Source of the DNA: an uncultured Sphingomonadaceae bacterium | GTDB taxonomy: Bacteria > Pseudomonadota > Alphaproteobacteria > Sphingomonadales > Sphingomonadaceae | Assembly: GCA_947488625.1 (NCBI GenBank) | Contig: CANKZR010000002.1 | Span: forward strand, 310,001-374,000 | Length of the DNA: 64,000 nt | Reading direction: 5' to 3' | Shown: one piece after another, positions 3,488-46,880 of the stretch | Position numbering within the stretch: the stretch's first letter is position 1 | How the letters are laid out: each line of letters begins with the position of its first letter | Position numbers and translations under genes: made by a program | Notes under the pieces: generated by a model | What the model was told of the DNA's origin: nothing | The model's database searches: none | What the model saw: only the letters and a program-made list of their open reading frames with translations

Positions 3488-3744
3488 TCGGGTGGATTAC
3501 CGATCACACGCTGACGCAAGTCGGCGACCAGCCACAGTCTGATGGCAGTTGCGAGGCCGGGCGCAAGCTCGGCCTCGATACGTTCGGCGTCGATTTTCGC
3601 CACCAGTGCATTGACAGGCAGGCGGGCCCGCTCGGCGGCTTCCTGCAGCATGTCCCAGAACAACGGCTCGAGACTGATCGACGTTTTGTGTCCCGCAATC
3701 TCTAACGAGCGTTTGCGGGGTGGATGGTAGGGCGTACTGGTCAT
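3481..3744 (-). CDS. Ribbon-helix-helix domain protein
   Basis: I place the start at the ATG at 3744, giving 87 residues; the frame stays open to 3837, but the earlier part is not domain-like and overlaps phaB. The segment KTSISLEPLFWDMLQEAAER has the short strand followed by helices seen in ribbon-helix-helix (Arc/MetJ-like) DNA-binding proteins. It lies 89 bases downstream of phaB on the same strand and may share its transcript. Such proteins usually act as small dimeric repressors; the target is unknown. Confidence 0.75.
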   Translation of the reverse strand: MTSTPYHPPRKRSLEIAGHKTSISLEPLFWDMLQEAAERARLPVNALVAKIDAERIEAELAPGLATAIRLWLVADLRQRVIGNPPDQ

Positions 3745-3833
3745 CGCATCGGTCCGGTGCGCGATCGGCACATCAAGGGATGTGCGGGATCGCGCGTGGA
3801 AGAGCAGGGCGCCGTCGTATGGCACCCACCCCA

Positions 3834-4556
3834 TCAATACATGTGCTGGCCGCCGTTGATGCTGAGCGTGGAGCCGGTGACGAAGGCGCCCTCTTCCGAA
3901 GCAAGAAAACTCACGCCGCGTGCAATTTCACTGGCCCGACCAAGCCGCCCCACGGGGATCTTGGCGACGATCTTTTCGAGCACGTTCTCCGGCACGGCGG
4001 CGACCATGTCTGTATCGATATAGCCTGGGGCGATGGCATTTACGGTGATACCGTAGCGTGCGCCTTCCTGGGCAAGAGCCTTGGTAAAGCCATGGATTCC
4101 GCTCTTGGCGGCGGCATAATTCACCTGTCCGTATTGCCCTGCCTGACCATTGATGGAGCCGATGTTGATGATCCGGCCCCACTTGCGATCTTTCATTCCA
4201 GCGAAAGTGGCCTTCGCCATGTTGAAGCAGCCGCCCAGATTGGTGCGCATCACATCGTCCCACTCTTCATAGCTCATGCGCAGCAGCGTGCCGTCGCGAG
4301 TGATGCCCGCGTTGTTCACCACCACGTCGAGCGGGCCGACGTCTCCAGCGATCTTTTCGCAGGCGGCAAGCGTCGCCTCGTGGTCGCCAACATCGAACTT
4401 GTAGGCGGGAATGCCCGTTTCGTCGGTAAAGGCACGCGCCTTTTCATCGTTACCTGCATAGCTGGCAACAACGGTAAAACCGTCGTCTCGCAGCGATTCG
4501 CAGACTGCGCGACCAATTCCGCGGGTGCCGCCGGTTACGATAGCTACGTGTGCCAT
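3834..4556 (-). CDS. phaB: Acetoacetyl-CoA reductase (PhaB-type SDR)
   Basis: A 240-residue short-chain dehydrogenase that would reduce acetoacetyl-CoA to (R)-3-hydroxybutyryl-CoA with NADPH for polyhydroxyalkanoate synthesis. Visible features are TGGTRGIG at 8-15 (Rossmann), NNAGITRDGT at about 81-90, catalytic Ser134, Tyr147 and Lys151, and the C-terminal GSTLSINGGQHMY typical of PhaB. No thiolase or PHA synthase gene is in this window, so the pathway link rests on family resemblance. FabG is the main alternative, but the NGGQHM ending favours PhaB. Confidence 0.9.
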   Translation of the reverse strand: MAHVAIVTGGTRGIGRAVCESLRDDGFTVVASYAGNDEKARAFTDETGIPAYKFDVGDHEATLAACEKIAGDVGPLDVVVNNAGITRDGTLLRMSYEEWDDVMRTNLGGCFNMAKATFAGMKDRKWGRIINIGSINGQAGQYGQVNYAAAKSGIHGFTKALAQEGARYGITVNAIAPGYIDTDMVAAVPENVLEKIVAKIPVGRLGRASEIARGVSFLASEEGAFVTGSTLSINGGQHMY

Positions 4557-4625
4557 TTTCAGTCTCTCCAGATGGTTGCCGTCTTTTGCGCGACGTTAGC
4601 CATCCGTTGCGAAACGCGCAAAACA

Positions 4626-4647
4626 AAACCCCGCCGAAGCGGGGTTC
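4626..4647 (-). terminator. Intrinsic terminator of the 4670-5452 gene
   Basis: An 8-bp stem AACCCCGC / GCGGGGTT (4628-4635 with 4640-4647) and a CGAA loop. Read on the minus strand, it is followed by TTTTGTTTT. It sits 22 bases past the stop of the minus-strand gene and upstream of phaB, so phaB is probably transcribed separately. Confidence 0.85.
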
Positions 4648-4669
4648 CATTGCACATAATGCACCGGCG

Positions 4670-5452
4670 TCAGAAGCGGAATTGCGTGCCGATATAGACG
4701 GCCTGGCTATCCTGCTGTTCCAGATCGGGAACGGGAACCAGATCGCGGTCCTGCTCGTACCGCACGCCGGCGGTGATATCGAGGTTGCGCGTCAGGCGGT
4801 AGCTGCCTGCAACATCCAGCATCTGGTCGCTCAGGCTGCTGCCGGAGGTTGCCACGCTGTCCGATGCGCGATCTTCATCGAGTTCGATGCGAGCAGCAAA
4901 ACGGCTCGGCTCTTCATTCGTCCTGCTGCGCGGGGCGAAGTCGGAAAGATCGGGGATTTGCGCACGCGACAGGCTGCTGGACAGGTCAGGCGCGGCGACC
5001 TTGCGCGGCGAGGCCGAAACCTGCGCTTGCGCGAAGCTGGAATAACCACGGGCCAAGCCGAGGTTGTAACGCGTCGGCGCAACCCGCAAGCCAGCCACGC
5101 GAGAGTTGCCGGAGCGCTGCGAACCGATGGAATTGTTGGCAGCGAGCGCATCGGCCGTCTGCTGATCGACGCGGACAGCAACCGTTACCGATCGAGTGCT
5201 GGACGATTCGTCGGAACCGGCCGGCGTGAACCGCATCATGCGTGGATCGCCATGCTGCCGTGCGATGAATTCTGCGAGCCGGGGATCGGCATCGGCGGGC
5301 GTGAAGGCAACGAAGGTGTCGGGGACTTCAACGACATTGGCGTTCGAAAGTGCGCCAAAGGCGAAGCCCGCGCTTGGAAGCGCGACGGCCAGCAGCAGTG
5401 CAGACGCGCCGAACGCTGCCTTTCCTGCCAATCCTTTGCGCTTGTCAGTCAT
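4670..5452 (-). CDS. Secreted protein with beta-barrel-like C-terminus
   Basis: I choose the ATG at 5452 (260 residues) because it has a good GAGGC ribosome-binding site and opens a signal-peptide-like N-terminus (basic TDKRKGLAGK, then hydrophobic AAFGASALLLAVALPSAGFAFG). The middle is Ser/Ala-rich and probably disordered. The last 50 residues look like alternating beta strands (NLDITAGVRYEQ, SQAVYIGTQFRF) and end in Phe, as outer-membrane barrels do. It is short for a complete barrel, so it could be a small OMP or a periplasmic protein. I do not recognise the family. Confidence 0.7.
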   Translation of the reverse strand: MTDKRKGLAGKAAFGASALLLAVALPSAGFAFGALSNANVVEVPDTFVAFTPADADPRLAEFIARQHGDPRMMRFTPAGSDESSSTRSVTVAVRVDQQTADALAANNSIGSQRSGNSRVAGLRVAPTRYNLGLARGYSSFAQAQVSASPRKVAAPDLSSSLSRAQIPDLSDFAPRSRTNEEPSRFAARIELDEDRASDSVATSGSSLSDQMLDVAGSYRLTRNLDITAGVRYEQDRDLVPVPDLEQQDSQAVYIGTQFRF

Positions 5453-5763
5453 CTTGCCTCTATACCCCTGCTCTAATGGACTCTGAATGAACCACCGGGT
5501 TCCCAGTTTCTCGCGAGTCGCGATGAGCACTTCCTTAGCTACGACCGAAATGCGACAAATTCCAGACATCGCTTTGCAACCCAATGGCTTTTTTCGGAGT
5601 GTTGCAGCTTATCCACAGCGTGCCCTGGCCCGTTCCCGCGACATTAAGCGCGCGTTCACGGCGATTCGCGGCATTTGTGGCCTTACACAACGCTTCGCCT
5701 TGCCGCAGGCATCATGCCCGTTATAGAGGCTGACAGCTGCGACTTTTCGTGTTTACAGGACCA
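5453..5763. other. Divergent intergenic region (311 bp)
   Basis: Separates the minus-strand secreted protein from the plus-strand lipoprotein, so it should hold two promoters, but I see no clear -10/-35 pairs. It contains one perfect DnaA-box sequence, TTATCCACA at 5609-5617. There is no cluster of such boxes and no AT-rich unwinding stretch, so it is not an origin. I found no RNA gene. Confidence 0.5.
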
Positions 5764-6228
5764 ATGATGGCAATTTTCCCCGTTCGCAAAATCTCCCGCC
5801 AGTTTGCTGGTACCGCCATGCTGGGCGCCGCATCCCTTGCCCTGGCCGCTTGCGGGGGTGGTGACGACCAGCGCCTGCGCACCGATCTTGCCGCGGCACA
5901 GGTCACGTCTATCGGTGTGAATTCCTATCTCTGGCGCGCCAGCCTGGAGACATTGTCGTTCATGCCGCTCACCCAGGCGGACAGTTCCGGCGGTGTGCTG
6001 GTAACGGACTGGTATGCCGATCCTGCAAACCCGAACGAACGGGTAAAGGTCTCGGTCGCGATTCTCGATCAGGACCTGCGCGCCGATGCGCTGCGCGTTG
6101 CCGCCAGTCGCCAGGTGCTGCAGAACGGCACCTGGGTAGAGGCGCCCGTGCAGGCCGCCACCGTACAACGGCTGGAGGATATCATCCTGACCAAGGCGCG
6201 CGACCTGCGACGTTCCGCCATCGGCTAA
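5764..6228 (+). CDS. DUF3576 family lipoprotein
   Basis: A 154-residue protein starting at the ATG at 5764, which follows ACAGGA at good spacing; an in-frame GTG lies at 5749 and a second ATG at 5767. The N-terminus is a lipoprotein signal peptide with lipobox LAAC followed by Gly/Asp residues, so it is likely lipid-anchored. The rest (IGVNSYLWRASLETLSFMPL, GGVLVTDWY, KVSVAILDQDLRADALRV) matches the DUF3576 family of alphaproteobacteria, which commonly sits directly before leuS. Function unknown; an envelope role is likely given that lptE is two genes downstream. The gap to leuS is 21 bases. Confidence 0.88.
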   Translation: MMAIFPVRKISRQFAGTAMLGAASLALAACGGGDDQRLRTDLAAAQVTSIGVNSYLWRASLETLSFMPLTQADSSGGVLVTDWYADPANPNERVKVSVAILDQDLRADALRVAASRQVLQNGTWVEAPVQAATVQRLEDIILTKARDLRRSAIG

Positions 6229-41425: not shown

Positions 41426-42652
41426 CTAGTCACAATCCGTCCTGATCCAGTCCCGCAATGCCTGTGCAGATCGGCCGTCGGCATTGCGGACCGCGAAATA
41501 GCGGCGCAGCCGGGTTATCGCCCAGCGAGGATAGGCCGTATAGCGGTACGGATCATCGGCTGTCGTATTGGCCAGCTTGCCCAATTCAACCGGGTCGGGA
41601 GAAAAGGCATTCCAGGCTGCCTGCCGCAGGGATATCGTGCTGCCTGCCTCCCGCCCCTGCCGGCGCAGCATGTCCATTTCCTTGTTTCCCTCCTCGTCCA
41701 GCAACATGGTTCGTGCAGCTTCTGTGCACAGTTCGGACGGCACGGCATCGTGCGGCAAGGCATCTTCGGGCACCCATCGTGCCCCATGCAACCGGGCGAC
41801 TGCCGCGAGCAGATGCAATCCACGCTCCAGCCCGAACTCCCTGGCACGCGCAGTAACCGTGTTCCAGTCGAGCGCTTGCGAATGGGCCAGGTAATGGAGG
41901 TCCGCCAACACCAGGGGACCGTTGGCAAAAAGGTGGTGGACCGTGGCATGGGCAACCAGGTGGAGCAGGTTCGCCTCGTCCGATGGCACGCGGAACCGGC
42001 GCCCGAACAATTCGATCTCGCGTGCCGTTCCTTCGATGTAGTCTTGCAAGGTATCCAGCTTGGGCGTTGCGTAACGGTTCGCCCGGTGGTGGACCTCGTA
42101 GATTACGCCATGCTGTGGATCTTCGATCTCGGGCAGGTGGTGCATCCGCTCCACTCCGTAATGCCCCGCATTCGCGATCGTCCGGAACCCGGAGCCGAGC
42201 AGGAGGTGCCGTGCGCTCTCGGCTCTCTCCTTCGCGAAAAGCATATCGATATCGCGCATCGGCCGAAGGCCGGGCTCGGGGTAATGCGCGAATGCAAGAC
42301 CAAAGCCCTTGAGCAGGATGAACGGCAGGTTCGCTTCTTCCAGGCGCGATGCGGCAAGCATCAAGGAGCGCGACTGGACAAGCGCATAGCGCATACTTTT
42401 CTGCCGCGCGTCCAACAGTTTTTCCAGGCCATCCGAAATGGACGCCGGGTTGCTGACGATCAGCGCACGATGGAGGAGCGGGGCGGTGCGGGTCGTGAAA
42501 GACAGCACCACCAGGCTTTCGAACCATGCGGGGTCACAGGTTGCGCCATCCAGTTCGATAGCCGCATCGGGATTGGCGCAAAGTCCTAGGATCAGGGCGC
42601 TGATATCGGGTTCGCAATTCAGTCCGACGTCGGTGTTAGAGGCGCTTCCCAT
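41426..42652 (-). CDS. Nucleotidyltransferase family protein of the RiPP operon
   Basis: A 408-residue protein from the ATG at 42652, chosen because the longer frame lies inside the cyclase gene and is not conserved-looking; it still overlaps that gene by 17 bases. LKGFGLAFAHYPEPGLRP then MRDIDMLF (Lys115, Asp134, Asp136) is the Pol-beta-type active site of the uncharacterised NTP_transf_5 group. Such proteins accompany some lasso-peptide operons together with HPr-like kinases. It may add a nucleotide or phosphate to the peptide or a carrier; the real substrate is unknown. Last gene of the operon. Confidence 0.8.
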   Translation of the reverse strand: MGSASNTDVGLNCEPDISALILGLCANPDAAIELDGATCDPAWFESLVVLSFTTRTAPLLHRALIVSNPASISDGLEKLLDARQKSMRYALVQSRSLMLAASRLEEANLPFILLKGFGLAFAHYPEPGLRPMRDIDMLFAKERAESARHLLLGSGFRTIANAGHYGVERMHHLPEIEDPQHGVIYEVHHRANRYATPKLDTLQDYIEGTAREIELFGRRFRVPSDEANLLHLVAHATVHHLFANGPLVLADLHYLAHSQALDWNTVTARAREFGLERGLHLLAAVARLHGARWVPEDALPHDAVPSELCTEAARTMLLDEEGNKEMDMLRRQGREAGSTISLRQAAWNAFSPDPVELGKLANTTADDPYRYTAYPRWAITRLRRYFAVRNADGRSAQALRDWIRTDCD

Positions 42653-44594
42653 CGTTGCGGCCTTCCATGTAGTTGACAAAACGCGCGGCGGCCACAGCCC
42701 GACCGATGCCATTGTAGATCGTGGTGCGATGATTGGCGAACCGGGCATCGGTACCATCCCATTCACGCAGATTTCTGATCAGTCGATCGGCATCGAAAAT
42801 GCTATTGAGCCGGGGATTGTCCCGCATGCTTTCCAATTCGCTTTCCAGCCCTTCGCGGTAACGACCGAAATGGATGAACCAGTCCGCGCTATCGTCTCCT
42901 GTTCGCCTTTCCTGCCAGATTTTTTCTGGAAGGCGCTGTGACAGCAGCCGCCTTGCGAGCCATCGATCGGTTCCCTTGCGCACGAACTGATCCTGCGGGA
43001 CGCCCCAACAAAATTCGATGAAGCTGCGGTTGGCCATCGGCAGGCGCTTTTCAATACCGGTAGCAAGTCTGGTGCCGAGGTACATTTCGGCCAGGTCGCT
43101 GTTGGCAAACGCGCGATACAACAGACGCGATGACTTGGGATCGGCGGCCAGCAGAAACTCGGGATCGAAGTCATTCGCGGCGGCGCGCTCCAACGCACCG
43201 TTTTCGCGGGCACAGTCTTCCTTCAACGGGCTCCAGTTTCCGAACGGCGTGTCGAGCGTGCCGCGCCAGCGCAGGAATGCCCGGTGAAGCGAGCGGGGCA
43301 GGTTGGGCGCGATCGCACGCCGGAAAAGCTTGCTGAGAAAAGGGTGCTCGACGGGGTCGTGGCGCAGTTCATCCAGCAGCCGCCCCCAGCGCATCGTGCG
43401 AAACCAGATTGCGAAGGCGGAGTCCCCATTGTCGCTGAAGGTGGGATTGCCGTATCCACCCTGGAACAGCACGTCGTTGCCGTCACGCGCAGCTTGTTCG
43501 AACAAGGCGAAGGGCCAATTGCCGCCGCTGCGTGGCGGCGAGGCGGCCAGCATGAAGTATTTTTCAAGGTAAAGACCGTACGGATCCTCGCCTTCCTGAA
43601 GGAAGCGGGGTTCCAGTGCCGGATATTGCGCTTTCAGCGCTTTTACATGGCTCGATTCATCAACGAAATACTGCGGCCTCGTCCCATCTTCGGTAAATTC
43701 GTCGAGCGGAACCCATGTGTACGAACGCAATTTCTGGCCGTCGGAAAGCTGTTGCAACACATAGCTGGCAATGGCTGGCGAATCGAGACCGCCCGACAGC
43801 ATAATCGCCGGTTGGCGCACGCCCTCCATCGCGGCGGAAACGGCCTGCGCGAAACGCTCGTCCAGGGCTTCGACATAGTCCTCATCGGCGGCGAAGTGCA
43901 CTGGCTCTATGTCGTCATAGCTCCAGCACTCGTGGACTGTCCTGGAAGAGAGGCCAAGCTCCACAACGGTGCCCCCGGCCACACGGGCATGATCGACGAA
44001 CCAGCTGGCAGTCTCGTCCGAAAAATTGACGAGCATCGCATCCACCAGCCTGCGATCATCGACCTGGCTGGGCGCGCCGGCAGCGAAAAGGCTGCGGGCA
44101 TTCGACGATACGACAACCTTGGCACCATCCCGCCAGTAATGAAGGGGCTGCATGCTGAAGGGCGAACGCGACAGGCGCAGGCGACGCTGGTCGGGAAACC
44201 ACACGATCGCTGCATAGTCACCGTCCAGGCGACGATCGGCATCCAGACCCCATCGCGCTACCGCCTCGCAGTATATTTGCGCATTGGGTGTCTGCTTGGG
44301 CAGGCCCAGGGCCGCGCAGGTTTCCGCACGATCATTAAGGCGTCCGGCGAACACGGCGTATGCACCCGACGAGTGGCGCTGCCACGTCCTGGGGATCGAG
44401 GATGACGAGGTACGGCCAGGCCGCGAACGCTTGCCAAGCCGGGCAAACAGGATGCCCGACGGCACTGGCCCCATCTCGACTTCGCCACCGTGGCCAACGC
44501 CCATGCTGGCGGCGATGCGCTGGCCAGTGTCCTTGGAATCAGTATCCAGGTCGCCATCCATGTCGACCAGCGCACTGGCAAGGAAATGGGTCAA
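42636..44594 (-). CDS. Asparagine-synthetase-like enzyme (lasso cyclase C type)
   Basis: A 652-residue AsnB homologue starting at TTG 44594, which overlaps the peptidase stop by 4 bases. The ATP-pyrophosphatase loop MLSGGLDSPAIAS is intact (Ser267-Gly-Gly-Leu-Asp271-Ser272). The N-terminal glutaminase-like domain lacks the catalytic Cys at position 2 (it begins M-T-H-F), as in lasso-peptide cyclases, which adenylate a side-chain carboxylate and let the N-terminal amine attack it. Length fits C proteins. True asparagine synthetase is unlikely given the missing Cys and the neighbours. The problem is that the linked precursor has no acidic residue in its predicted core. Confidence 0.87.
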   Translation of the reverse strand: MTHFLASALVDMDGDLDTDSKDTGQRIAASMGVGHGGEVEMGPVPSGILFARLGKRSRPGRTSSSSIPRTWQRHSSGAYAVFAGRLNDRAETCAALGLPKQTPNAQIYCEAVARWGLDADRRLDGDYAAIVWFPDQRRLRLSRSPFSMQPLHYWRDGAKVVVSSNARSLFAAGAPSQVDDRRLVDAMLVNFSDETASWFVDHARVAGGTVVELGLSSRTVHECWSYDDIEPVHFAADEDYVEALDERFAQAVSAAMEGVRQPAIMLSGGLDSPAIASYVLQQLSDGQKLRSYTWVPLDEFTEDGTRPQYFVDESSHVKALKAQYPALEPRFLQEGEDPYGLYLEKYFMLAASPPRSGGNWPFALFEQAARDGNDVLFQGGYGNPTFSDNGDSAFAIWFRTMRWGRLLDELRHDPVEHPFLSKLFRRAIAPNLPRSLHRAFLRWRGTLDTPFGNWSPLKEDCARENGALERAAANDFDPEFLLAADPKSSRLLYRAFANSDLAEMYLGTRLATGIEKRLPMANRSFIEFCWGVPQDQFVRKGTDRWLARRLLSQRLPEKIWQERRTGDDSADWFIHFGRYREGLESELESMRDNPRLNSIFDADRLIRNLREWDGTDARFANHRTTIYNGIGRAVAAARFVNYMEGRNDGKRL

Positions 44595-45061
44595 GACGCT
44601 TCTCTGGAGAGACTTTCTGGTCGCATCGGCAAATCAGGCTGTTCACCGAAGCTGGCGAGCGGGTGGTAAAGGGTACGGTCGCAGTGCCCGATGATCATGG
44701 TGGACTGCAATTCGACCCAGGCATGCAGGGGATCTGCATTGTGCTCCTGCGTCTTGCAGACAGACGCAATCACCAGCCGTGCGGCTATACCTCGACGGCG
44801 CAGCATCCACATGGCCACGATGGCCTTGGGCAAGCATTTCGTACCGCCGCCCATGCGCCAGCTAGCACGTTCCACGCTGCGACCGATCTGTGAAGCGATC
44901 TCCAGGCGTTCCGCAGCGCCGAGTTGATTGGCGGCACCGGACAAGGAAGCACCCAGAGTATGCTTCCAGCGCCCAATCTTCACGAAGCGCACAAGCAAAC
45001 GGGCCAGTGGCAGAAGCGCGATTGCCTCCGCGACTAGCCTGCGTCTGGACCAAAGTTTCAC
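44591..45061 (-). CDS. Lasso-peptide B2-type leader peptidase (transglutaminase-like)
   Basis: A 156-residue protein of the transglutaminase-like B2 family that cuts the leader from RiPP precursors. Catalytic Cys76 is in GTKCLPKAIVAMWMLRRRGI and His113 in PLHAWVELQS; the acid is probably Asp128 in IIGHCD. The N-terminal 35 residues are basic and hydrophobic. Start is GTG 45061. It lies 26 bases after the PqqD-like gene and overlaps the cyclase start, the classical B1-B2-C order. Confidence 0.88.
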   Translation of the reverse strand: MKLWSRRRLVAEAIALLPLARLLVRFVKIGRWKHTLGASLSGAANQLGAAERLEIASQIGRSVERASWRMGGGTKCLPKAIVAMWMLRRRGIAARLVIASVCKTQEHNADPLHAWVELQSTMIIGHCDRTLYHPLASFGEQPDLPMRPESLSREAS

Positions 45062-45087
45062 GAATTGCGGCTCCTGAAACGCCCGCC

Positions 45088-45351
45088 TCAGCAGTATCGG
45101 GCGAGCCCGAGTTCGACGAGGCGCGTCACAAATGCTTCCACCGACGGGCGAATTTCGCTCTCGTCGGCGTCGTATTCGTCAGCCAAATTCCGGCAAACCG
45201 CGTCAATATCAGCCTCGTCATCGAGGCGCTGCCAGATATCCAGGCCCGTGTCCTTCAACGCGAAAAACTGGCCGGTCTCGGCATGAATCAGGACAAATTC
45301 GCCGTCAATTTCCGCGCCCTGATAGCTTTTCTCAAGCTTCCGGATTTTCAC
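45088..45351 (-). CDS. PqqD-like RiPP recognition element (lasso B1)
   Basis: An 87-residue winged-helix PqqD-family protein. The strand-turn pattern GEFVLIHAETGQFFALKDTG followed by LDIWQRLDDEADID and helices is the RRE fold that binds RiPP leader peptides through edge-strand pairing. It would hand the 44-residue precursor, 22 bases upstream, to the B2 peptidase. Start is GTG 45351. A stand-alone B1 next to B2 is standard in proteobacterial lasso clusters. Confidence 0.88.
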   Translation of the reverse strand: MKIRKLEKSYQGAEIDGEFVLIHAETGQFFALKDTGLDIWQRLDDEADIDAVCRNLADEYDADESEIRPSVEAFVTRLVELGLARYC

Positions 45352-45373
45352 GGTGTACGGCTTTTAGAACTGA

Positions 45374-45508
45374 TTAGCTCTGGCCGCCCGACTTGAAAGA
45401 CGTACCGCCAGCCTGGCTGTTCATACCAGAAGTGCCCGCAACCGACGAAAGATCGATCGGGAGTTCATCTACCACGGGGGCGGACCAGGTTTTTTTCTCA
45501 ACAGTCAT
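45374..45508 (-). CDS. RiPP precursor peptide with lasso-type leader and acid-free core
   Basis: A 44-residue peptide from ATG 45508 to TAA 45374-45376, between the kinase and PqqD-like genes. The N-terminal part has KK then Trp8-x2-Pro11 followed by hydrophobic Val12/Leu16, matching the Y/W-x2-P recognition motif read by B1 proteins. Thr26 would be the penultimate leader residue, as in known lasso leaders, giving a core beginning at Gly28: GMNSQAGGTSFKSGGQS. This core has Gly at position 1 but no Asp or Glu; the only acids (Glu4, Asp14, Glu15, Asp19) lie in the leader. It ends in Ser44, the type of residue phosphorylated in paeninodin-like systems. A promoter candidate lies directly upstream. 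Confidence 0.8.
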   Translation of the reverse strand: MTVEKKTWSAPVVDELPIDLSSVAGTSGMNSQAGGTSFKSGGQS

Positions 45509-45548
45509 AATTCAACGTCCGTCTAATTAGGGAAAATCTCTATAAACG

Positions 45549-45577
45549 TATATAAACAGCTGTGTGCTGCATTGCAA
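45549..45577 (-). promoter_or_regulatory. Candidate promoter for the RiPP precursor
   Basis: On the minus strand, TTGCAA (45577-45572) and TATATA (45554-45549) are separated by exactly 17 bases in an unusually AT-rich stretch between the kinase stop and the precursor ATG. Each box matches four of six consensus positions. It would give a leader of about 35 bases and let the precursor be made in excess over its enzymes. Confidence 0.4.
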
Positions 45578-45579
45578 CG

Positions 45580-46431
45580 TTATACGGGCGCGGTGGTCGC
45601 TTGTTCCAAGATATCGCTGAAAGCGTGGGTGAATTCCATGTTCCTGGGCCTGGTGCCTTTCCAGAACCGCACGTTCCGGGCCAACTGCGTTAACAACTTG
45701 GCGTTCTCGATAGGGCTGTTCACCGCGCGCTGGACGAAAGCAAAGTACAACGCCCCACTGGCATAGCGCATCTTATCCGCGCCGACGATGGGTTCCAGCG
45801 ACACGTCGTCGCCGAATTCCAGGAACACGAGGTCGGTAAGGGGCACCGGGTCCGTCACGCTATCGGTCGGATCGACATAGAACTTGCCCGGCACGAAGGC
45901 GATTTCGCGCTTCGGAGCTACGCCCAGGTGTTCGACCGCGTCACCCCACAACTTCCGCGGCTTTCCATCGGGAAGTGCGAGCACTTGCGAATCGCTACAT
46001 TGCAAAACGAGCGTGTCATCACACAGGTGCCGATATCCGCGCTCGGCGAGGCTAGCCGCCAAAGTAGACTTGCCACCGCCGGAATCGGCGGTGAAGGCCA
46101 CCGTCCGGCCATCCTTTACCACTGCGCTGGCGTGAAGGGGCAGGAGACCATTCATCCAGCTTACCGTGCCCAGAACCGCTCCGACGAGATACATATTGAA
46201 CTCATCCTGCAGTGCCGGGTTCGGCAGGTCGACCGTCAGGCCCTCGCCCTTGCGGTAAAGGAACATCACGCCGTTGGCCGTTTCTGCACGAAACATCGAA
46301 TCGCGGATCTGGAAGCCGTCCCCGTCGTCGAAATCGGGCTGGTCCAGATATTCCGGTACCTTGCCAGATTTCACCTGCATCTCTCGATTGAGTGCGCGAA
46401 GCGGATCAGCGGCAAACCCGTTACTGCTCAT
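45580..46431 (-). CDS. HPr-kinase-like serine kinase of the RiPP operon
   Basis: A 283-residue protein with the catalytic core of HPr kinase/phosphorylase: LLPLHASAVV with His100, Walker A ADSGGGKST at 115-123, and HLCDDTLVLQ with the acidic pair Asp138-Asp139. It lacks the N-terminal domain of true HprK and has no PTS gene nearby. Homologues in lasso operons phosphorylate the C-terminal Ser of the precursor, and the peptide encoded next door ends in Ser. First gene of the operon, divergent from 46608. A lipid A/EPS-linked kinase role is an alternative but less likely. Confidence 0.85.
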   Translation of the reverse strand: MSSNGFAADPLRALNREMQVKSGKVPEYLDQPDFDDGDGFQIRDSMFRAETANGVMFLYRKGEGLTVDLPNPALQDEFNMYLVGAVLGTVSWMNGLLPLHASAVVKDGRTVAFTADSGGGKSTLAASLAERGYRHLCDDTLVLQCSDSQVLALPDGKPRKLWGDAVEHLGVAPKREIAFVPGKFYVDPTDSVTDPVPLTDLVFLEFGDDVSLEPIVGADKMRYASGALYFAFVQRAVNSPIENAKLLTQLARNVRFWKGTRPRNMEFTHAFSDILEQATTAPV

Positions 46432-46607: not shown

Positions 46608-46880
46608 ATGATTAAGAATATTCTCGCCGCGACCGCAGCAGCCAGCCTTACCCTGGCTCCGATTGCAGCCCAGGCCAACACCCGCGCCGCTGATGCTGGT
46701 GTTGCTATCCAGATGCCGGAACGCGCTGGCGCGTCGGTTGAGGAATCAGAAGAGGTTGGTTTCGGACTTTCGGCGGCGTTCATCGTCCTGCTGTTCGGTG
46801 CAGCCGCAGCGGCTGTCGTGATCTTCATCGAAGAAGATGGCGACGAACCTGTCGATCCCCCGGCCTCGCCCGGCGCCTGA
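46608..46880 (+). CDS. Small secreted/single-pass membrane protein
   Basis: A 90-residue protein with a Sec signal peptide (IKNILAATAAASLTLAPIAAQA, cleavage near QA-N), a short polar part, one transmembrane segment (about 54-74, LSAAFIVLLFGAAAAAVVIF), and an acidic tail EEDGDEPVDPP. An ACAGGAG ribosome-binding site precedes the ATG. Proteins of this design are common in sphingomonads with no known role. It is divergent from the RiPP operon, so a link such as immunity is conceivable but not supported by more than position. Confidence 0.75.
   Translation: MIKNILAATAAASLTLAPIAAQANTRAADAGVAIQMPERAGASVEESEEVGFGLSAAFIVLLFGAAAAAVVIFIEEDGDEPVDPPASPGA

Follow-up and report, generated by a model that had tools for sequence, protein, structure and literature searches.

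Gene content of the lasso-type operon

The window analysed here is a stretch of 64,000 nucleotides from an uncultured Sphingomonadaceae bacterium (assembly GCA_947488625.1, contig CANKZR010000002.1, forward-strand positions 310,001 to 374,000), and coordinates of its features are counted within it. It carries a lasso-type operon that, judged from its genes, is paeninodin-like in its working and has a precursor core predicted to be free of acidic residues. Six open reading frames (ORFs), all of them minus-strand, occupy positions 46431 to 41426 in the order K, A, B1, B2, C and N, and the arrangement put forward in an original prediction from the letters of the DNA (kinase, precursor, B1, B2, AsnB-like C and nucleotidyltransferase) was thus borne out. 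That prediction had all genes overlapping, which holds for B2/C (4 nt) and C/N (about 17 nt), whereas gaps of 71, 22 and 26 nt separate K from A, A from B1 and B1 from B2, respectively.

The precursor A (45374..45508, minus strand) comprises 44 residues and was matched by no NCBIfam or Pfam family at E up to 1. In the register taken from its homologs, residues 1-24 (45437..45508) form the leader MTVEKKTWSAPVVDELPIDLSSVA, with a W8..P11.V13 motif of the B1-binding type, three acids (D14, E15, D19) and V23 at position -2, while residues 25-44 (45377..45436) form the predicted core GTSGMNSQAGGTSFKSGGQS without Asp or Glu. The CAG codon of Gln32 (45413..45415) corresponds to core position 8, which is the ring-acceptor position, and the codon of the C-terminal Ser44 (45377..45379), the expected phosphorylation site, closes the core.

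The remaining genes were identified by family searches. Kinase K (45580..46431, 283 aa) is HPr-kinase-like, and H100, K121, D138 and D139, assigned by eye, are candidates for the four-residue His-Lys-Asp-Asp motif typical of lasso tailoring kinases (PMC9266682; papers are cited here and below from excerpts of their text). B1 (45088..45351, 87 aa) is a PqqD-like leader-binding protein (PF05402, 66 bits at a cut-off of 23.4). With respect to the HPr-rel-A system, B1 passes the PqqD model TIGR04353 (40.1 bits, cut-off 35), while K remains far under TIGR04352, its best NCBIfam match (46.1 bits, cut-off 200). B2 (44591..45061, 156 aa) matches the B2 model NF033537 (64.5 bits, cut-off 33) and belongs to the transglutaminase-fold leader peptidases (fold family PF13471), with a candidate triad C76-H113-D128 chosen by eye. 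C (42636..44594, 652 aa) is an AsnB-like cyclase of the asparagine synthetase (AS) type, as indicated by PF00733 (72.8 bits), the PP-loop SGGLDS at residues 267-272 and structural matches to the AS family; a further loop, RRTGDDSADW, spans residues 563-572. Its score with the NCBIfam lasso cyclase model NF033535 was 121.5 bits, far below the cut-off of 525. N (41426..42652, minus strand like all others) is nucleotidyltransferase-like (PF14907, 141.7 bits), with a probable ATG start at 42652 chosen by eye.

Leader cleavage and core register

To collect homologs, 298 genomes of the family were searched with the window cyclase (47 with a match at E up to 1e-40) and 396 genomes of the order with the cyclase of locus L020 (48 with a match at E up to 1e-50), and a search of genome contigs added 39 loci. 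At many of these loci a short ORF lies nearby that encodes a W..P.[LVI] leader followed, at fixed spacing, by Val or Ile and usually Ala. Two leader patterns, which had Val/Ile at -2 and a terminal Ser/Thr built in and left the core letters before the last unconstrained, yielded 79 distinct precursors. The patterns missed seven precursors that read by eye as Asp8 (L057, L059, L066, L085, L118, L122, L124) and one as Asp9 (L097), and L047, L051 and L141 stayed unparsed. The parsed set falls into group A, with Trp at -16 (65 precursors, from Sphingomonadales), and group B, with Trp at -17 (14 precursors, including that of the window).

The register common to these relatives is Val/Ile at -2, one residue, and then the core. 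Accordingly aligned, the window leader probably ends with Val23(-2)-Ala24(-1), which puts the start of the core at Gly25. Cleavage after Thr26-x, as originally proposed, was rejected since alignment with the Asp8 relatives places Val23, and not Thr26, at -2. The Thr that is expected at -2 of a lasso leader is thus absent from the window precursor, while distant relatives (L118, L122, L124) read by eye as Asp8 following Thr(-2). An Ile or Val at -2 has been reported for Sphingomonadales precursors, and a related B1/B2 pair acts with an Ile(-2) leader (PMC10368454). The earlier claim that the core is free of acid holds under either cut. A precursor with a leader and a core of this kind is present in the window and in its ortholog, L092.

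A different cleavage site could also restore normal lasso chemistry, with an acceptor that lies in what we assign to the leader, such as Asp(-3) of group A or Asp19 of the window. Such acids are available, as Asp(-3) occurs in 61 of the 65 group-A precursors and the window leader holds its three. However, Asp(-3) is also found in all seven group-A precursors with a Glu8 or Asp9 core, and therefore behaves as part of the leader; it is missing in 12 of the 14 group-B precursors, most of which are Asp8; and a ring of 7-9 residues ending at Asp(-3) would begin in or beside the W..P.L motif. We hold this explanation to be very unlikely.

Glutamine at the acceptor position

The window core has no Asp or Glu at positions 7-9, where lasso cores carry their acceptor, and Gln8 stands there instead. 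In group B, Asp8 is found in 11 precursors and Asp9 in one, and the two with Gln8 are those of the window and L092 only. The distribution differs in group A, where Gln predominates (51 Gln8, 6 Gln9) over Glu8 (4), Asp9 (3) and neither residue (1), and 40 of the 57 group-A Gln cores are without any Asp or Glu. L116, from Qipengyuania proteolytica, is an example of a group-A operon with an acid-free core. An alignment of homologous operons had been expected to show a conserved acid-free Gly/Ser core; what is conserved is the Gln at core position 8, while the acid-free Gly/Ser character is not general.

Over all 65 group-A cores, entropy within the first 12 positions is lowest at position 8 (1.36 bits) and next lowest at position 1 (1.56). 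In a thinned set of 33 dissimilar group-A cores position 8 is still the lowest, by little (1.59 vs. 1.62 bits), with Gln8 in 24 of the 33. An entropy of 0.72 bits at this position was set aside as circular because it had been computed on cores chosen for Gln. Shuffling of residues within each of the 65 cores gave a mean of 5.3 and a maximum of 14 Gln8 in 2000 trials, compared with the 51 observed. The Gln codon is CAG in 42 and CAA in 11 of the 53 Gln8 precursors, each one base from a Glu codon. Since Gln has been kept at this distance from Glu, and Glu8 is found in two sub-lineages only, its amide nitrogen probably matters.

Several Gln-type precursors have features of their own. At L046 and L082, which represent the same place, a single group-A cyclase is accompanied by two precursors in tandem, GKPVPFRQAHNNRKS and GKPVPVLQDAGNRKS, each of which has Gln8. 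The Gln-type cores of L025/L135, L138, L139 and L029 have two cysteines, so that a disulfide is possible, as in some known lasso classes. Gln cores range from 12 to 26 residues in length, and the Gln8 cores of L163, L104 and L106, with 12-13 residues, leave 4-5 residues beyond the ring, where threading may fail.

For a wider comparison, NF033537 matched in 28 of 289 genomes of the class, and 20 stretches were looked at. Inspection by eye gave an Asp8 or Asp9 reading of the precursor in 12 of them (L230, L232, L233, L238, L240, L241, L244-L249) and a Glu8 reading in L235, L236 and L237; L243 has Glu7 or Glu8 (two ORFs, one also with Asp9), and in the other 4 of the 20 no such acceptor could be read by eye. 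Ordinary Glu acceptors therefore occur in distant relatives. A scan of the same 289 genomes with NF033535 gave weaker matches in 179, unsorted, and none over the cut-off.

A normal lasso precursor elsewhere in the genome could have been the substrate of the window operon. Contig C4 indeed carries a second lasso-type cluster (L248, about 3597-6110), whose precursor ends with SVETKGNALFDIDVSSGRLSYATGLAED and reads by eye as Thr(-2) and Asp8. This cluster has its own B-like protein and cyclase, and when the window precursor was searched against the entire genome, the sole match with a credible score was the precursor itself; inspection by eye of the next hits (E 0.05 and 0.55) revealed no W..P ORF resembling a precursor. 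A second precursor served by the window operon, which would have overturned the earlier reading, was therefore not supported and was rejected.

Conservation of the operon in an ortholog

Locus L092, also from an uncultured Sphingomonadaceae bacterium, contains all six genes, with the same order from K to C and a cyclase 74% identical to that of the window. Its core GTSGFNSQNAGRSFKSGGQS is likewise acid-free with Gln8, and 16 of the 20 core residues are identical to those of the window. Locus L165 (genome G459, of the window's genus) is, judged by its length (38570), the same contig as L092, and the two thus count as one ortholog. Between the window and L092, the ratio of nonsynonymous to synonymous differences (pN/pS) is 0.29 for K, 0.32 for A, 0.19 for B1, 0.39 for B2, 0.24 for C and 0.33 for N, with synonymous sites near saturation (synonymous divergence, dS, 1.5-2.1). 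Judged by these ratios, the six genes are under purifying selection.

A decayed operon or a chance reading frame was rejected on the basis of this selection and of the acid-free core kept in L092. That homologs of the window's own group carry Asp8 agrees with one part of the decay scenario considered earlier, while the decay itself is contradicted by L092 and by purifying selection. A related explanation is that the operon is inactive, or that it yields a linear phosphopeptide with a cyclase that no longer cyclises. The cyclase branch of the window pair is long (0.79), and among cyclase columns conserved in group B, 36 of 165 are changed in both window and L092; the figures for two control pairs are lower, at 22 of 148 and 16 of 143. 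The cyclase has thus diverged while its PP-loop was kept. Nevertheless, selection acts on all six genes (pN/pS 0.19-0.39), the PP-loop is intact, the predicted fold is complete and confident (see below), and Gln8 is kept in both orthologs; inactivity would moreover leave Gln8 of group A unexplained. We consider loss of function improbable.

Next to the kinase, a divergent ORF of 90 aa (46608-46880, plus strand) has a signal-like start and a hydrophobic stretch, with weak NCBIfam matches under the cut-offs. By eye, L092 has similar DNA in the corresponding position (about 2700-2985).

Cyclase phylogeny and predicted fold

The homolog set contained 108 cyclase ORFs of at least 450 aa that differed in sequence end, among them some that represent one gene cut out twice. 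Of these, 91 could be labelled with an acceptor, 8 of them by eye, and formed the rows of a maximum-likelihood tree; the 17 unlabelled ones were left out. Window and L092 pair with a support of 100 in the Shimodaira-Hasegawa-like approximate likelihood ratio test (SH-aLRT), and this pair is nested in a clade of 13 rows (SH-aLRT 100) whose other members are Asp8 (10) and Asp9 (1). The group-A cyclases form a separate set of 66 rows (support 98; 55 Gln8, 5 Gln9, 5 Glu8, 1 without either), except for three with Asp9, which are placed elsewhere on the tree. Within the Gln clade, Glu8 appears in two places, as two small sub-lineages. A single clade of all Gln, Glu and neither rows was rejected by the approximately unbiased (AU) test (p-AU 0.008; 84 rows after removal of 7 near-duplicates, which were kept in the tree and the residue counts), although the grouping was named after the tree had been seen and long branches are present. 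On this tree, therefore, Gln at the acceptor position has two or more origins, one of them inside a clade that otherwise has Asp. The cyclase branch of L048 is very long (1.66).

Of the 62 Gln-type cyclases, 61 carry a narrow PP-loop pattern, as do 18 of the 23 Asp-type ones. Beta-lactam synthetase and asparagine synthetases align with a profile built from 53 cyclases, and the same alignment gave an AlphaFold2 model of the window cyclase with a mean predicted local distance difference test (pLDDT) score of 93.7. In a Foldseek search of the PDB, this model was matched best by TsnB9, a hydroxyamidotransferase, and by beta-lactam, asparagine and carbapenam synthetases, with identities of 11-16%. 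The glutaminase-like domain at the N-terminus has Thr rather than Cys at position 2.

Lys443 is catalytic in beta-lactam synthetase, and residue 568 of the window cyclase lies four residues past the residue aligned with it. Every one of the 23 Asp-acceptor cyclases in the tree set has Gln at this position, as has the enzyme of a Priestia species (Bacillota, paeninodin-family). The 62 Gln-acceptor rows have His (55), Trp (3), Asp (2, window and L092), Pro (1) or Gln (1), and the 5 Glu8 rows have His (4) or a gap (1). Among 20 more distant cyclases, for which the alignment is poor, Gln is found in 7. The cyclases of L235, L236, L237 and L243, whose acceptors read by eye as Glu, have Thr or Ser there.

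Proposed maturation and ring closure

Reasoning from the sequences and the cyclase model, we propose that B1 binds the W..P.V motif of the leader and that B2 cuts between Ala24 and Gly25. K would phosphorylate a Ser, most likely the C-terminal Ser44, with core Ser3 as the alternative; the window core has both. The precursors end with Ser in 77 and Thr in 2 of the 79 cases, the Ser/Thr ending having been a parse condition, and the window ends with Ser44 in the manner of the paeninodin type. In the paeninodin precedent, the C-terminal Ser is phosphorylated before cyclisation (PMC9266682), while BsfK phosphorylates Ser3 (PMC10368454). N may then modify the phosphate, possibly with a sugar, as PsmN adds a hexose in pseudomycoidin (PMC9266682). 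Finally, the ATP-dependent C would join the amine of Gly1 to the side chain of Gln8 and thereby form an eight-residue ring. The earlier suggestion that another kind of closure, or none, has to be considered for this core is borne out by the missing acid acceptor.

Since Gln has no carboxylate, two routes of closure are candidates. In the first, C would adenylate the carboxamide oxygen of Gln8 to an adenosine monophosphate (AMP)-imidate, and Gly1 would displace AMP to give a cyclic amidine with a loss of 18.01 Da. In the second, the Gln8 nitrogen would leave as ammonia (-17.03 Da) to give the isopeptide ring, a lactam, that is formed from Glu8. We lean somewhat towards a ring that closes on Gln8 by one or the other route, with the weight shared about evenly between the two.

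In the ammonia route, Gln8 would either be converted to Glu by hydrolysis beforehand or undergo direct attack by Gly1. This route requires no unfamiliar type of product and is favoured to that extent. Glu8 stands in for Gln8 in two group-A sub-lineages, as expected if the same ring results, and B2 has a transglutaminase fold (PF13471). However, NCBIfam and Pfam searches recognised no deamidase among the six window genes, the glutaminase-like domain of the cyclase lacks the Cys at position 2, and an identical product would leave unexplained why Gln was retained for so long one base away from Glu. This route accounts for one half of our best explanation; on its own it is a possibility that we would not rate as probable.

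The persistence of Gln, the Glu8 sub-lineages, the lack of a recognised deamidase and the missing Cys2 favour the amidine route. An enzyme that activates amides and accepts Glu as well would account for the persistence of Gln and for Glu8 alike. Activation of amide-like oxygens is known from other PP-loop ligases, namely argininosuccinate, guanosine monophosphate (GMP) and TilS synthetases. For the AS-like RiPP enzyme PesC, activation of a peptide amide as an AMP-imidate has been proposed (PMC13060819). The full form of this idea is that AS-like cyclases activate the Gln8 side-chain amide and make amidine-locked lasso peptides, which would have at least two origins in Sphingomonadales and have been missed by mining based on Asp/Glu. 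We put this forward tentatively, as a proposal with the odds against it.

It is also conceivable that no ring forms at Gln8 and that C acts on the C-terminal carboxylate, by head-to-tail closure or amidation, with Gln8 serving recognition or folding. The terminal carboxylate is the sole carboxyl group in the window core and in the 40 acid-free Gln cores of group A, and C-terminal amidation or nitrilation by AS-like RiPP enzymes is known (PMC13060819). This would leave unexplained why Gln is found exactly at the Asp8/Glu8 position of relatives. Moreover, the varying length of Gln cores, the C-terminal Ser as the expected kinase site and the lack of a Cys at position 2 for glutamine-dependent amidation argue against it, and we regard a C-terminal product as unlikely.

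Several observations weigh against closure of a ring on Gln8. An asparagine-synthetase-like cyclase normally activates a carboxylate, and the Gln8 ring chemistry is proposed from sequences and not from product chemistry. In group A, 14 of the 57 Gln cores also carry Asp at position 7 (11) or 9 (4; one has both), which could be the normal acceptor there, and 9 of the 57 are only 12-14 residues long, short for a threaded tail. The group-A-like precursor of L048, GPQGGFTSNGSNPDRRS, has neither an acid nor Gln at position 8 or 9. The Gln8 lineage of the window is known from two operons only, and the Val/Ile at -2 of the parsed precursors is built in by the parse patterns. As to residue 568, the correlate has two independent contrasts, so that a sign test cannot reach significance; one Gln9 cyclase keeps Gln, the Glu8 rows share His with the Gln rows, and 13 of the 20 distant cyclases are without Gln, including Glu8 (Thr) and several Asp8 ones. 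The residue may thus mark a clade, or distinguish Asp from the longer Glu and Gln side chains, rather than reflect Gln chemistry. Finally, the Bsf cluster never yielded a detectable lasso peptide in heterologous hosts (PMC10368454).

Relation to known systems and implications

The window operon resembles the clusters of paeninodin-type phosphorylated lasso peptides (pade, thco, syan, psm, bsf), which share the split B1/B2, the AS-like cyclase, the HPr-kinase-like K and a precursor with C-terminal Ser, and some of which contain N (PMC9266682, PMC10368454). The Priestia cluster of the paeninodin family has A, B1, B2 and C in common with the window, and its core reads by eye as Asp9. The paeninodin precursor model NF033524 gave no match for the window or L092 precursor, and 13.3 of 27 bits for that of L004 in group B.

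For lasso peptides, the residue on which the ring closes is described as Asp or Glu (PMC8498205, PMC10368454). In contrast, the window and most of its group-A relatives have Gln8, and their penultimate leader residue is Val or Ile instead of Thr. The Ile/Val(-2) Sphingomonadales precursors of PMC10368454 share the order and the -2 feature and may overlap with the families described here; the excerpted text of that paper is silent on their acceptor residue. PesC, the nitrile synthetase of the nitrilobacillins, is AS-like and acts on a ribosomal peptide, as would C of the window, but its substrate is the C-terminus, where AMP is eliminated to a nitrile without forming a ring (PMC13060819). Metanodin likewise has an unusual ring residue in a lasso peptide; its novelty is Asn at position 1, on the amine side, and the acid that closes its ring is Asp, unlike in the window (PMC12670498). 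A Gln acceptor for a lasso-type ring was not found in the excerpts of the open PMC literature, whose supplements were outside the scope and where the precursor list of PMC10368454 might hold such sequences unremarked. Gln8 in place of the acid hints at a ring-closing chemistry that is not described in the literature searched.

Ring closure through the side chain of an Asp or Glu is the feature by which the lasso class is described, and with this defining acid absent, the product of the window operon would not be filed as a lasso peptide. Mining rules that demand an acid would drop Gln8 precursors or misplace their cores. The amidine and lactam routes differ by 1 Da in the mass of the product. 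The dozens of operons that keep Gln, with two origins, point either to a ring chemistry undescribed for lasso peptides, by an amidine or by the release of ammonia, or to a repurposed lasso enzyme.

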